A stretch of DNA of 64,000 nucleotides from Indolivaga macrotermitis. GTDB lineage: Bacteria; Bacteroidota; Bacteroidia; Bacteroidales; Dysgonomonadaceae. Where the stretch lies: positions 1 to 64,000 of the forward strand of contig NZ_FQUC01000009.1 of NCBI RefSeq assembly GCF_900128985.1, written 5' to 3'. Both the position numbers and the translations under genes were made by a program. Of the stretch, positions 31,633 to 37,414 are shown in pieces. The stretch's first letter is position 1. Each line of letters begins with the position of its first letter. The notes under the pieces were generated by a model. It did not search any database, was not told where the DNA came from, and saw only the letters and a list, made by a program, of their open reading frames with translations.

Positions 31633-34600
31633 TTATATCATAAAATGCAACCTGTTTTGCAGATTCACTTCTGCAATACCTCCGTCAATATCCAGATACA
31701 GAATATTCATATCAGGATACAGGGTTTTCATTCGTTTCTCAACACCTTTAGCTACAATGTGATTAGCGATACATCCGAATGGTTGTATACAAACCACTTT
31801 ATTTACCCCTTTCCGGGCATAGTGCGCTACTTCTCCGGCGATGAGCCAGCCTTCACCAAATTGGTTTGAGAGACTAAGTACTTCTGATGCTGCCTCGGCT
31901 TTAGCAAAGATGGATTCCGACGTTTCGTAGAAACGGAAACCTTTCATGATCTTCTCATATTTTTTGATCTTCATGTTGATAAGTTGCCAGATAACAGGTT
32001 TCATCGCCTTTTCGAAGATGGTTTCTTCTCGTAATCCATTCTTTACATCCTCTTTGCTGTTTACAAAAAACTGTAGTAGGAAATCAAGTAGAGGAGGACA
32101 GGACACTTCTACTTCCTTCGATCTGAGCCATTCGGTAATATTGGCCTGAGCATAGTTATTGTATTTGAGGAATATCTCACCAATAAGCCCAACCTTTGTA
32201 TATTGCTTATTATGTATCGGGATATTGTTAAAGTCGGCTACAGCTTCTTTTAGTAGGCGTCTCAGTATTTTAGGCGAGTTCGCCCTGACTGCATCTATCC
32301 CTCTTTCGATATAGAAATCAAATGCAGACAGAGAATCACCCTTCTTCTTTTCTCTGACAGAGATCGAACTATGCATCTGCTGTAAAGTATCTGAGTATAA
32401 GACCAGATCGACTGCTATTTTAGCCAGCTTTTTCCAGTCTATACTGAATTCACTCTCCTCATTCTGATAAGAATCTCCGGATGAAAGGGCAATTACCGGA
32501 ATATCTCTGAATCCTGCATTTTGTAATCCACTCTTTATTTGAGCCAGATAGTTTGTAGCACGGCATTGACCTCCTGTTTGGGTTATTGCCAATACTATAT
32601 CCTGAACATCATAATTCCCCGATTGCAGGGCATTTATAATATCTCCCAGTATTAATGTCGAAGGATAACATACTTCATTGTTACCATACATTAAACCTAA
32701 ATCTGCAGATATTTTGTTTGATTTAGGCAGGTTTTCAATCTTATAACCAACCAGTTCACCTAATGCAGGAGCGAAGGGCGATAAGAAGTCGGTAAACCAA
32801 GGAATAAGGATAGTTTTCTTCCGGTCTTCCTTGGTATAAGGCGTGCGGTATCCTTTATAGTCATCCGTATTTATCTTATGTTCTACAGTATTAATTGTCT
32901 TAAGGGACTCAACCAAAGACCGTAGTCTCAAGCGGATTGAACCCGGACTTGCAATCTCATCGATACGCAATACGGTGAGGTTCTTGCCGGCTTGTTTCAA
33001 TATATCCTGTACTTCGTCCATAATGAACGAGTCGGGGCCGCAGCCGAACGAGTTTAATTGTATCAATTGTATATTCTGAGGTAGCTTAGCTACTTCCATA
33101 GCTGCTTGAACCACACGGTTCGGATACGACCATTGTGATACAATATTGAGTTTGCCAAAGCCTCTACTTTCTTCTTTGCGGAATACATCATCCGTAAAAA
33201 CCAGTACACCCAGATCAGACAGTATTTGTCCGACTTTCTGGTGGATAAGTGGGTCAGCATGGTATGGACGACCTGCTACAACAAAAGCTGTCTGATTATT
33301 TTTGATAGCATCTTCCAGTAGTACCTTTTGATTTTCTCTTAATAGTATCTTGGTTTCGTTCTTTATTTTCATAGCCTTATCAAAAGCCTTTTCGAATATG
33401 GCTTTTGATACTCCTAATGACGAAAGATACTCATAACAACCTTTCTCTAAGGCTTTATCATTACTGAATGTAATGACTGGTTTGTCAAGAGGTATGCCAT
33501 ATTTTTCTTCCGGTTCAACAGAGCTTCGGATAACTTCCGGGTAACCGCTTACCACCGGGCAATTGAACGAGTTGGACGAGCTACCGAACTCTTTCTCTTC
33601 CTTAGGAATGATAGGGTAGAATATTCTATCGACCTTTTGTTCTATCAAAGCAAGTATATGCCCGTGAACTAACTTGGCAGGAAAGCATATATTATCGGAC
33701 ATGACACCACCTACACCTTTTTGATAGAGAGGGAATGTCGACTCCGGAGATAGTCTTACATTGAACCCGGATTCTGATAATAATACATGCCAAAAAGGAT
33801 AGTTGTCAAACATGTTCAGCACCCGTGGAATACCAATGGTTTTTCCGAGTAATATATTATCGGGATTTACCTTTTGGTTGAAAAGTATTTCATTCTTTTC
33901 GTCGAAACCGTTGAATCCTCCTTTTTGAGTGGAGTTTTTGTTATAGAATATTTTTTCACACTTATTACCAGCATAACAGAGGTTTCCGTTTTCGAATTTG
34001 AAGCGAAGTACCGAACAGCTATTAGTACATCCTTTACATTGCAATTCTTTGGTATTGATCGCTTCCGGGTCAGGTAAAGAGAACATTGAAACATGTGCTG
34101 TTTCGGCTTTTTTATCGGAAAGCCTCTGGGCATATAATGCGGCACCCAATGCACCCATCAATTCAGGATAATCTGTTGAACTTACCGATTTACCGGAGAG
34201 TAATTCCAATGCACGGTATACAGCATCATTCCGGAATGTTCCTCCCTGTACTACTATATTGTCCCCTAATTGTTTAAGATTAGAGATTTTAAGAACTTTG
34301 TACAAACAATTCTTTACAACCGAATAGGCTAATCCGGCAGCGATATCATCCATACCTGCATTTTCCCGCAAAGATTGTTTCACTTTGGAGTTCATAAACA
34401 CAGTACAACGCGAACCTAAATCCGATGGATATTGTGCGATACAGGCAGCCTTTGAGAATTCACCCAAAGACATGTCCATCGTAGAAGCAAAGTTTTGTAA
34501 GAAAGAACCGCACCCGGCAGAACAGGCTTCATTTAACTCTATATTAGAGATCACCCCGTTGTTCGTAAATATAGATTTAATGTCTTGTCCTCCAATATCT

Positions 34601-35868
34601 AATATAAATGATACCTTTGGGTCTACATATTGAGCACCCGAAAGGTGAGCCATCGTTTCCACGATACCATAGTCGAGTCCTAAAGCCGACTTGATCAGGT
34701 CTTCACCGTATCCTGTAGCTGCTGATGATATGATTTTATAGTTAACCCCTTTTTCTGCGGCTTTTTGTTGGAACTGTTCCATCCCTTCGACCACTTTCTT
34801 GAGAGGGTTACCTTCATTGCTACCATAAAAAGTGTACAGAATATTGGTATCAGCATCCATAATCACAATTTTAGTCGTGGTAGACCCCGAATCTATACCC
34901 AAATAGCATTCTATATTTTTGTCTGTACCTAGTTCTTTGAACTTTAGAGGTTTTATTTTTCGGCTTTTATTCCAAAGCTTATATTCAGTATCATCGTTGA
35001 ATAAAGCTGGTAAATATTCTTTTTGTAAGCCTGTTTTTGTTTCTGACCTTGTTATCAGTTCATTTAAGTTGTGATAAACGGCTTCTTTTTCGTTATATAA
35101 CGCAGCACCCCATGCTGGAAAGTATTCTCCATTTTCAGGAACAATCAGATCTGCATCAGATACCTTGAGCACATTACGGAAAGCATTACGCAATGCCGGT
35201 AAAAATGTCAAAGGACCTCCGATACAGAGTATCTTAGGTTGAATATTACAACCTCTGGCTAAGGTTGTAACACTTTGTAAAGCAACAGCATGTAAGATTG
35301 AACCCGAAATATCCGCTACAGGAATATTACGGCTGATCAGATTTTGAACATCTGTTTTAGCAAATACACCACACCGGGAAGCGATAGGATAGATCCTTTC
35401 ACATTTAAGAGCCTGTATTCCTAATTCATCGGTCGATATATTCATTAAGTTGGCCATCTGATCGATAAAGGCTCCCGTCCCTCCGGCACAACTCCCGTTC
35501 ATTCGTATGTCAGGGTGTTTTCCTTTCTTGAAAAATACCATTTTGGCGTCTTCGCCACCTAGGTCTATTAATGTATGAGTTTCGGCATACACATTATTTA
35601 CAACTTCTACAGCTGCTACAACTTCTTGTACAAAGCTAATACCTATGCGTTCGCCTATCCCCATTCCGGCGGATCCTGTAATGTTAATACAAAATTCAGT
35701 ATCCGGATATTCAGTGATAACCTTTTGAAGTTCTTCAATAAAAGACTGTTGTATATTAGCCTGATGTCTACGATAGGCCTTATAGATAATTTGCGATTGC
35801 GAGTCTATTATCACAATCTTAATAGTAGTTGACCCTACGTCAACACCCATTTTATATTGTTGTTTCAT
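31633..35868 (-). CDS. Giant 2-hydroxyacyl-CoA dehydratase activase-type fusion protein
   Basis: A 1411-residue cytoplasmic protein. Two BcrA/HgdC ATPase domains come first (about residues 5-260 and 320-580), each opening with a GxDxGSTTxK phosphate motif. Cluster cysteines are C127 (NGSCAGGTGAF) and C166 (SRCGVFAKTDV) in domain 1, and C449/C453 and C488 in domain 2. A Cys-rich linker follows (C611, C614, C618, C631, C637), then a DUF2229 region starting near 675 and a HgdB-like dehydratase half to the C-terminus. Activases of this kind use ATP to pass one low-potential electron to an iron-sulfur partner; here donor and acceptor seem joined in one chain. The substrate is unknown. It is 13 bases downstream of a TetR gene and co-transcribed with it. 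Confidence 0.9.
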   Translation of the reverse strand: MKQQYKMGVDVGSTTIKIVIIDSQSQIIYKAYRRHQANIQQSFIEELQKVITEYPDTEFCINITGSAGMGIGERIGISFVQEVVAAVEVVNNVYAETHTLIDLGGEDAKMVFFKKGKHPDIRMNGSCAGGTGAFIDQMANLMNISTDELGIQALKCERIYPIASRCGVFAKTDVQNLISRNIPVADISGSILHAVALQSVTTLARGCNIQPKILCIGGPLTFLPALRNAFRNVLKVSDADLIVPENGEYFPAWGAALYNEKEAVYHNLNELITRSETKTGLQKEYLPALFNDDTEYKLWNKSRKIKPLKFKELGTDKNIECYLGIDSGSTTTKIVIMDADTNILYTFYGSNEGNPLKKVVEGMEQFQQKAAEKGVNYKIISSAATGYGEDLIKSALGLDYGIVETMAHLSGAQYVDPKVSFILDIGGQDIKSIFTNNGVISNIELNEACSAGCGSFLQNFASTMDMSLGEFSKAACIAQYPSDLGSRCTVFMNSKVKQSLRENAGMDDIAAGLAYSVVKNCLYKVLKISNLKQLGDNIVVQGGTFRNDAVYRALELLSGKSVSSTDYPELMGALGAALYAQRLSDKKAETAHVSMFSLPDPEAINTKELQCKGCTNSCSVLRFKFENGNLCYAGNKCEKIFYNKNSTQKGGFNGFDEKNEILFNQKVNPDNILLGKTIGIPRVLNMFDNYPFWHVLLSESGFNVRLSPESTFPLYQKGVGGVMSDNICFPAKLVHGHILALIEQKVDRIFYPIIPKEEKEFGSSSNSFNCPVVSGYPEVIRSSVEPEEKYGIPLDKPVITFSNDKALEKGCYEYLSSLGVSKAIFEKAFDKAMKIKNETKILLRENQKVLLEDAIKNNQTAFVVAGRPYHADPLIHQKVGQILSDLGVLVFTDDVFRKEESRGFGKLNIVSQWSYPNRVVQAAMEVAKLPQNIQLIQLNSFGCGPDSFIMDEVQDILKQAGKNLTVLRIDEIASPGSIRLRLRSLVESLKTINTVEHKINTDDYKGYRTPYTKEDRKKTILIPWFTDFLSPFAPALGELVGYKIENLPKSNKISADLGLMYGNNEVCYPSTLILGDIINALQSGNYDVQDIVLAITQTGGQCRATNYLAQIKSGLQNAGFRDIPVIALSSGDSYQNEESEFSIDWKKLAKIAVDLVLYSDTLQQMHSSISVREKKKGDSLSAFDFYIERGIDAVRANSPKILRRLLKEAVADFNNIPIHNKQYTKVGLIGEIFLKYNNYAQANITEWLRSKEVEVSCPPLLDFLLQFFVNSKEDVKNGLREETIFEKAMKPVIWQLINMKIKKYEKIMKGFRFYETSESIFAKAEAASEVLSLSNQFGEGWLIAGEVAHYARKGVNKVVCIQPFGCIANHIVAKGVEKRMKTLYPDMNILYLDIDGGIAEVNLQNRLHFMI

Positions 35869-35881
35869 ATCCTCTTGTATT

Positions 35882-36526
35882 TTATTGGGCGTTCTCTGTG
35901 TTGTTTATATTGGGTTTAAGTGCATTGGTCACAAATTGTATGACATATTTTTCGTGACTGGCTATCAGGGAATCATATGTATTACGAGGGATTTCAAGCA
36001 ATGTCATAGCCATATTGCCAAATAAAAAAGGGAACATGCATAAAGAGAGTATATTCAGCAGGAAATCTGCGGCCGGTGTTTCTTTTATTACCCCTTTCTT
36101 TACTTCTTCATGGATACGGGCTTCGATTTTACTGAATGAACTGAATGGATTTTTATTCTTTATCCTTTGAGTCAGAGCTTCAGGATTAAGGCTTACTTCA
36201 TTTAATATGAAGGCAGCTATCTGTGGATATTCAAATAATATCTCATAGTAAGTATGAATCCATGTTTCGATCAATTCGAAGAAAGGTAGGTCGGAATTGA
36301 TAGTTTCGAGGATTCTGGAGGTAAGCACATCCATTGCCTCTTCGAATATAATTTCGAATAAATTATACTTCGACCGGAAATAGTAGTTAACCATTGCTAC
36401 ATTCGTTCCCGATGCTTTTGCTATATCCCTGACACTTGTGCCCCTATATCCATTCCGGATGAATAAATCCTGAGCTTCTTTTAGGATTTTTTCTTTTACA
36501 ATATGTGAATCTTCTGTGTTAAACAT
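35882..36526 (-). CDS. TetR/AcrR-family transcriptional regulator
   Basis: A 214-residue TetR protein. The N-terminal helix-turn-helix is clear: ILKEAQDLFIRNGYRGTSVR then DIAKASGTNVAMVNYYFRSK (about residues 14-55), with the family YYFRSKYNLF ending. The C-terminal ligand-binding part is divergent. It leads an operon with the giant activase. Two dyads flanking its own promoter make autoregulation likely, with the ligand possibly an acyl-CoA or other metabolite related to the activase (inference). Confidence 0.93.
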   Translation of the reverse strand: MFNTEDSHIVKEKILKEAQDLFIRNGYRGTSVRDIAKASGTNVAMVNYYFRSKYNLFEIIFEEAMDVLTSRILETINSDLPFFELIETWIHTYYEILFEYPQIAAFILNEVSLNPEALTQRIKNKNPFSSFSKIEARIHEEVKKGVIKETPAADFLLNILSLCMFPFLFGNMAMTLLEIPRNTYDSLIASHEKYVIQFVTNALKPNINNTENAQ

Positions 36527-36531
36527 CTGTT

Positions 36532-36547
36532 CTAAACGGTTGTTTAG
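36532..36547. promoter_or_regulatory. Proximal TetR operator
   Basis: A perfect 6-bp-arm dyad CTAAAC-GGTT-GTTTAG lies at the predicted transcription start, 6 bases ahead of the TetR start codon. A half-site-like GTTAAAC overlaps the start codon at 36518-36524. Confidence 0.7.
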
Positions 36548-36549
36548 TG

Positions 36550-36580
36550 CAAATATAACTCAGATAATCAAGTTAAACAA
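36550..36580 (-). promoter_or_regulatory. Promoter of the TetR-activase operon
   Basis: On the minus strand a TTG (36578-36580) is 20 bases ahead of TATATTTG (36550-36557). The -33 element is inside the distal operator, and the proximal operator starts just downstream of the -7 element. Confidence 0.75.
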
Positions 36581-36588
36581 GTGTTTAG
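36573..36588. promoter_or_regulatory. Distal TetR operator
   Basis: TTAAAC-AAGT-GTTTAG, the same dyad as the proximal copy with one arm mismatch. The two centres are 41 bp apart, about four helical turns, so bound dimers would lie on one face of the DNA. Confidence 0.68.
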
Positions 36589-36667: not shown

Positions 36668-37414
36668 TCAGATATTTAACATTTTCAGAGCTTTTTCCAT
36701 GTCTTCAGGTGTATCTATACCTATTGTTTCAAGATCAGTATATCCGACTTTGATCTTATATCCGTTTTCGATCCACCGAAGCTGTTCCAACGATTCTGCT
36801 AATTCTAGAGATGACTGTGGTAACAAGGTTATTTCTTTCAGAATATCTACACGATAAGCATACATTCCGATGTGTTTATAAAAAGTGTGCTTATCAAGCC
36901 ATTCGGTATGTTTTGCATCTCTTATATAAGGAATGATAGAACGGCTGAAATAAATAGCTTCATCTTTTTTATTAATAACAACTTTAGGCGAGTTGTTATT
37001 AAATAATACATCAAAACCGTCTTTCTTTCTGAAGGGTTTTACTAATGTGGCTAGTTCTACATCCTTACTATTAAAACAGGACTTTAGCTCTTCAATCTGA
37101 CGGGGCTGTATGAAAGGCTCGTCTCCTTGTACATTTATTACAACATCAAATGTCTTTTCTATTTTTTCATAAGCTTCCTTACATCTGTCAGTTCCACTTC
37201 TATGATCAGCAGATGTCATAACAGCCTTTCCTCCAAATGCTTCGACAGCATCTAATATTCGAACGTCGTCAGTTGCTACCCATACGTCATCAAGAACAAG
37301 TTTAACCTGTTCGTATACACGTTGTATCATAGTTTTCCCCGCCATGTCGGCTAGAGGTTTTCCCGGAAAGCGGCTCGAGCTATATCTGGCCGGAATGATT
37401 CCTACAAATTTCAT
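36668..37414 (-). CDS. kdsB: 3-deoxy-manno-octulosonate cytidylyltransferase
   Basis: KdsB activates Kdo as CMP-Kdo for lipid A-core assembly. At 248 residues it is full length, with the N-terminal nucleotide motif IIPARYSSSRFPGKPLADMA, the INVQGDEPFI segment (about residues 92-101) and IGMYAYRVDIL. It lies 34 bases downstream of a NfeD protease gene on the same strand, so the two may be co-transcribed. It confirms an LPS- or LOS-bearing envelope. Confidence 0.96.
   Translation of the reverse strand: MKFVGIIPARYSSSRFPGKPLADMAGKTMIQRVYEQVKLVLDDVWVATDDVRILDAVEAFGGKAVMTSADHRSGTDRCKEAYEKIEKTFDVVINVQGDEPFIQPRQIEELKSCFNSKDVELATLVKPFRKKDGFDVLFNNNSPKVVINKKDEAIYFSRSIIPYIRDAKHTEWLDKHTFYKHIGMYAYRVDILKEITLLPQSSLELAESLEQLRWIENGYKIKVGYTDLETIGIDTPEDMEKALKMLNI

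Follow-up and report, generated by a model that had tools for sequence, protein, structure and literature searches.

Two conserved dyads overlap the core promoter of a tetR-activase operon of Indolivaga macrotermitis and are candidate operators for autoregulation of probable ether-lipid synthesis genes

Upstream of a tetR gene of Indolivaga macrotermitis, two dyads of the same type surround a promoter, and the gene is followed by one encoding a fused activase of 1411 residues. This raises the question of whether the TetR protein controls its own operon through these dyads, how the promoter would then be shut, and which signal would open it again. The relevant features of the window (the whole stretch of 64,000 nucleotides that was analyzed) are the following.

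36668 to 37414, minus strand: kdsB.
36573 to 36588, minus strand: candidate distal operator dyad, TTAAACAAGTGTTTAG (minus-strand reading CTAAACACTTGTTTAA), which holds the TTG of the promoter -33 element.
36578 to 36580, minus strand: promoter -33 element TTG, inside the distal dyad and 20 bases before the -7 box.
36550 to 36557, minus strand: promoter -7 element TATATTTG (TAnnTTTG).
36532 to 36547, minus strand: candidate proximal operator dyad, CTAAACGGTTGTTTAG (listed as CTAAACAACCGTTTAG), over the expected transcription start.
36520 to 36533, minus strand: imperfect third dyad or extra half-site, AGAACAGATGTTTA, spanning the tetR start codon and partly coding.
35882 to 36526, minus strand: tetR, 214 residues, ATG at 36526, with a TetR_N domain (PF00440).
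31633 to 35868, minus strand: fused activase gene, 1411 residues, with two BcrAD_BadFG domains, DUF2229 and a C-terminal dehydratase-like part.

The dyads fall between kdsB and tetR. Reading along the minus strand, the distal dyad with the -33 TTG is followed by the -7 TATATTTG, the proximal dyad and the tetR ATG, with 5 bases between the proximal dyad and the start codon, and 13 bases between tetR and the activase gene. The earlier note had described two dyads of identical type bracketing this promoter, with the -33 TTG within the distal site and the -7 element between the sites. This description proved exact to the base. Both dyads match YTAAACN4GTTTAR ([C/T]TAAAC-N4-GTTTA[A/G]) without deviation, and their centers lie 41 bp apart (3.9 helical turns of 10.5 bp each). 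The promoter, which we take to be of the Bacteroidota type (TTTG ... TAnnTTTG), would start transcription at the proximal dyad, as judged from the position of the -7 box.

We have then compared the occurrence of the dyads with chance. The exact pattern was observed twice in the 64-kb window, against 0.047 occurrences expected from an order-2 Markov model of the same window, and in 150 simulated windows no two sites lay within 60 bp of each other. A looser search of the window, allowing up to two mismatches, returned 28 dyads against 17 expected, barely above chance. The search for the same dyad elsewhere in the genome, which the earlier note had proposed, revealed no enrichment (the exact pattern was found 5 times and its reversed control 3 times); thus, it is the pair that is special and not the word itself. 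Among the eight non-operon sites checked, a set that left out G000:C10:159929 and several other listed sites, no two had an orthologous neighbor in common, and six lay within a predicted reading frame. A broad regulon in the genus was rejected, as the exact pattern was not consistently more frequent than the reversed control in the six genomes, and within the genus no regulon was seen beyond the tetR-activase operon. A viral-contig scan gave no match.

Comparison with relatives demonstrated the conservation of the dyads. Relatives of the TetR protein came from 15 loci on named contigs, all 6 genomes of the genus, 32 of the 101 genomes of the family and 30 of the 295 of the order. Removal of duplicates left 62 distinct loci, with a TetR identity of at least 37% in 36 and below that value in 26. 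With a TetR sharing 81% identity with the D. capnocytophagoides protein, the genome groups with Dysgonomonas, and the dyad pair adjoined tetR in all six genomes of the genus. At least one exact dyad core was present in each of the 35 distinct loci that pair a TetR of clade A (dyad TTAAAC/GTTTAA) with an activase gene, and 33 of these had two dyads. The dyads are therefore kept upstream of orthologous operons, a point on which the earlier note had staked its proposal. L060, among the 36 loci at 37% identity or more, had neither an adjoining activase gene nor a dyad.

The two dyads lay upstream of tetR in 27 loci, with both cores exact in 25; L011 carried two core changes and L035 one, in its proximal dyad. 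Over these 27 loci the dyad arms were 99-100% identical, as against 48% for the 29 bases directly upstream. Mean identity in the distal dyad was 0.99 for the arms and 0.97 for the spacer, and that of the proximal arms was about 1.00. Other arrangements were also found. L099 had two dyads 33 bp apart; in L052, L053, L056 and L057 the gap between the two genes held a second, exact dyad, and in L055 one with a single mismatch; in L054 and L058 one dyad each was found. Among the loci examined below 37% identity that had a TetR hit, a dyad was seen only in L082; L161 came from the activase search. The imperfect third dyad or half-site at 36520-36533, with two mismatches, recurred in 24 of the 27 two-dyad loci (absent from L017, L023 and L025), and coding constraint may explain it.

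The spacing of the dyads bears on how the promoter would be shut. The earlier note had regarded the distance of about four helical turns as the geometry of cooperative binding. On such a reading, two dimers four turns apart would occupy one face of the DNA, and their phase would shut the promoter. In this genome the figure stands (41 bp, 3.9 turns), and 24 of the 27 two-dyad loci fall within 41-43 bp (41 bp in 3, 42 in 14 and 43 in 7). Across relatives, however, the spacing is not conserved: it is 44 bp in 3 loci and 33 bp in L099, the second dyad has moved into the gap between the genes in five loci, and one dyad was found in two. Moreover, the distal dyad holds its distance to the -7 box while the proximal dyad shifts, which promoter geometry explains. 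That distance was constant in 23 of the 27 loci, with an exact TAnnTTTG at the same offset, and the distal spacer ended in TT in all 27, so that the TTG of the -33 element was preserved throughout. In other families, when read by eye, the upstream dyad overlapped the -7 box in L052-L055, L057 and L099 and lay just past it in L058 (no clear promoter was seen in L056). In the upstream arrangements examined, the dyads overlapped or adjoined -33, -7 or +1. What persists across these loci is that the dyads overlap the core promoter, not that they keep a fixed helical phase. Hence, steric occlusion is preferred over phase-dependent cooperativity, which we consider unlikely, and the two sites would serve for a stronger shut-off. 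The position of the dyads also suggests repression rather than activation.

The protein encoded next to the dyads is a clear member of the TetR family. Its TetR_N domain scored 49.9 bits against a cut-off of 24 (PF00440), the predicted model (pLDDT 82.9) showed the all-helical TetR fold, and the best solved matches listed were TetR-family regulators. The structure search with this model returned general TetR matches only and gave no clue to a ligand. The best NCBIfam match was RefZ of Bacillus, and the RefZ structure 6mj1 was among the closest solved structures by sequence; the window TetR differs from it, however, scoring 73.2 bits with the curated equivalog model, whose cut-off is 180, and no septum role is suggested. 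The curated models for PsrA (Vibrio; 40.9 bits, cut-off 300) and for FadR (Bacillus TetR type; 35.4 bits, cut-off 200) were not reached either.

The identity of the second gene gives the operon its likely function. Its 1411-residue product is 37-39% identical, over 98-100% of the length, to proteins of Listeria and Acetoanaerobium and to a split Fusobacterium pair. The order of PF01869 domain(s), DUF2229 and a dehydratase-like C-terminus, which is the PlsA/Ger architecture, is shared with Listeria, Fusobacterium (split), Haliovirga and Collinsella. The name "TetR-activase operon" given in the earlier note holds for the gene order, tetR and then the activase gene, and can be made more specific: by length and domain order, the activase is likely a PlsA/Ger-type synthase of vinyl- or alkyl-ether lipids, and the pair of genes is thus probably an autoregulated ether-lipid operon. 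Known PlsA/Ger synthases likewise carry PF01869 activation domains and reach about 1410 residues in a single gene (4,248 bp for plsA of E. faecalis K-4; PMC12838417), the host here being a member of the Bacteroidota. The vinyl-ether synthase PlsA and the alkyl-ether synthase Ger are described as inseparable by sequence, and two activation domains go with the alkyl-ether Ger in the validated cases given (PMC13274423); the product of the window enzyme would be one of these two ether types. Of four Bacteroides, B. thetaiotaomicron alone is reported to contain plasmalogens (PMC10056535), and our literature search found no published report of plasmalogen in Dysgonomonas. The plasmid-labeled records NZ_CP030101.1 (L085, 2.9 Mb) and NZ_CP154629.1 (L086, 2.6 Mb) resembled whole chromosomes.

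As for the signal, the regulator could act as an oxygen or redox switch, with ether-lipid synthesis turned on only under anoxia. This would follow the case of E. faecalis and other facultative anaerobes, in which the TetR/AcrR-like EF1326 is encoded directly upstream of pls and has been called potentially O2-sensing (PMC9702350). The gene position relative to the single-gene plasmalogen synthase (EF1327) is the same as in the window and constitutes the likeness between the two regulators, but the pair belongs to another phylum and no operator is described for it in the available part of that source. The TetR proteins compared here have no conserved cysteine, with L017, L025 and L092 having none at all. 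Oxidase genes were compared over 80 genomes, leaving out seven Dysgonomonadaceae and several of low completeness; in this set, whose members are mutually related, a single family makes up most of clade A and the oxidases are a rough proxy of lifestyle; heme-copper oxidase was found in 0 of 39 TetR-linked versus 6 of 41 TetR-less genomes. In the same set, cytochrome bd gave a mixed picture (clade A together with its sister L161, 17 of 20; other TetR, 6 of 19; no TetR, 23 of 41). Based on the cysteines and the two oxidase families, an oxygen-sensing role is not supported here, and we regard it as quite unlikely.

A lipid signal finds its parallel in PsrA and the PsrA-like Smlt2053, autoregulated TetR-family proteins whose site shares the AAAC-N4-GTTT core with the clade A dyad; the Smlt2053 promoter is reported to carry two such repeats, and the protein to bind long-chain fatty acids (PMC13104628, PMC10304680). 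These regulators differ in their target gene, and the window dyads do not conform to the full PsrA site, G/CAAAC(N2-4)GTTTG/C, as their flanks are T/A where PsrA has G/C. The TetR of L082 has a TTAAACN4GTTTAA dyad upstream and is encoded not beside an activase gene but before a gene resembling that of beta-ketoacyl-ACP synthase III (216 bits with the best KAS III model, cut-off 249), hinting at lipid control. The PsrA-like core and the placement of L082 before a fatty-acid synthesis gene led us to guess an acyl-type lipid or precursor as the ligand, an analogy that we hold tentatively and as more doubtful than probable.

We have also asked which protein would bind the dyads. The N-terminus of the activase was searched for in 393 genomes of the order and was present in 85, at 86 places. 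The upstream region was examined at 84 of these (two at contig starts were left out, and four of the 84 have fewer than 650 bases upstream), and a TetR-type gene lay directly upstream in 31. Four TetR clades emerged, each with its own N4 dyad: TTAAAC/GTTTAA for clade A, the TTGACA/TGTCAA and TTAATA/TATTAA types for clades B and C, and TTAATC or TTAAAC/GATTAA, with clade D upstreams also differing by one to two mismatches from the dyad of clade A. Neither the truncated L162 nor L137 (GTTGAACATTTGTTCAAA) belonged to any of the four types. The recognition helices varied in step with the dyads (e.g., NVAMVNYYF, ISRTSLHYYF, CNQALVHYYF and NLALLNYY). When placed on the TetR tree, the four operator labels required 3 changes, the fewest possible, versus a mean of 17.3 when shuffled, a strong pattern but not an independent test, since the loci used to define the clades and motifs were also those on which the match was scored. 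Label A needs two changes because L082 also has the A dyad. This correspondence of dyad sequence with TetR clade and recognition helix makes the adjacent TetR the likely binder, in support of what the earlier note had predicted.

Another TetR-family protein acting in trans could instead be the main binder, the adjacent one being incidental. The genome has a TetR paralog of the clade D type (L027), and trans control is probable in relatives: 9 of the 50 TetR-less activase genes carry a TTGACA- or TTAATA-type N4 dyad, as in clades B and C, near the inferred start (L111, L118, L136, L141, L167, L171, L179, L186 and L187), which suggests TetR control in trans at those loci. Clade A dyads, however, were accompanied by an adjoining clade A TetR in 35 of 35 loci, and none of the 50 TetR-less loci came within one mismatch of TTAAACN4GTTTAA. 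For the window dyads we thus find a trans-acting main binder very unlikely, and binding by the adjacent TetR remains the preferred reading. The paralogous TetR genes of Dysgonomonas (L026, L027 and L028) are presumably followed by genes for TolC-type, outer-membrane efflux-like proteins. Outside the Bacteroidota, the TetR-like gene that precedes this enzyme gene in Collinsella (L088) is not detectably similar to the window TetR and lacks such a dyad, and is possibly an independent pairing; no TetR gene adjoined the enzyme gene in Listeria, a genus with pls orthologs (PMC9702350). Finally, a role of the dyads as leader RNA hairpins was rejected on position alone and is almost certainly wrong: the proximal dyad would lie at the 5' end of the transcript, but the distal one covers -33, upstream of any transcript from that promoter, and the stem would consist of only six mostly A-U pairs.

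Taken as a whole, we consider it quite probable that the TetR-family protein binds as a dimer at each of the two 16-bp dyads in its promoter, the distal dyad covering the -33 element and the proximal one the expected transcription start. The bound protein would block RNA polymerase and so repress tetR and the downstream gene for the probable ether-lipid synthase, until released by a small molecule, for which an acyl-type lipid or precursor is the likeliest candidate. The dyad pair is real and conserved and makes, with the TetR protein, a sound candidate repressor-operator pair, ordinary in kind and interesting in its target. On a wider scale, ether-lipid synthesis in Bacteroidales may be under lipid-sensing TetR repressors. 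Their repeated recruitment to one enzyme gene would each time have placed a different N4 dyad on the core promoter, with the same logic working in trans at genes without an adjoining regulator; we see this as a possibility that falls somewhat short of probable. Bacterial control of plasmalogen and ether-lipid synthesis appears little explored in the literature available to us, where the TetR neighbor is only "potentially" O2-sensing (PMC9702350) and the conditions tuning PlsA/Ger are left to future studies (PMC13274423). A defined pair of candidate operators, the match of recognition helix and operator over the four TetR clades, and the presence of the operon in cultivable Dysgonomonas species make this control directly testable.
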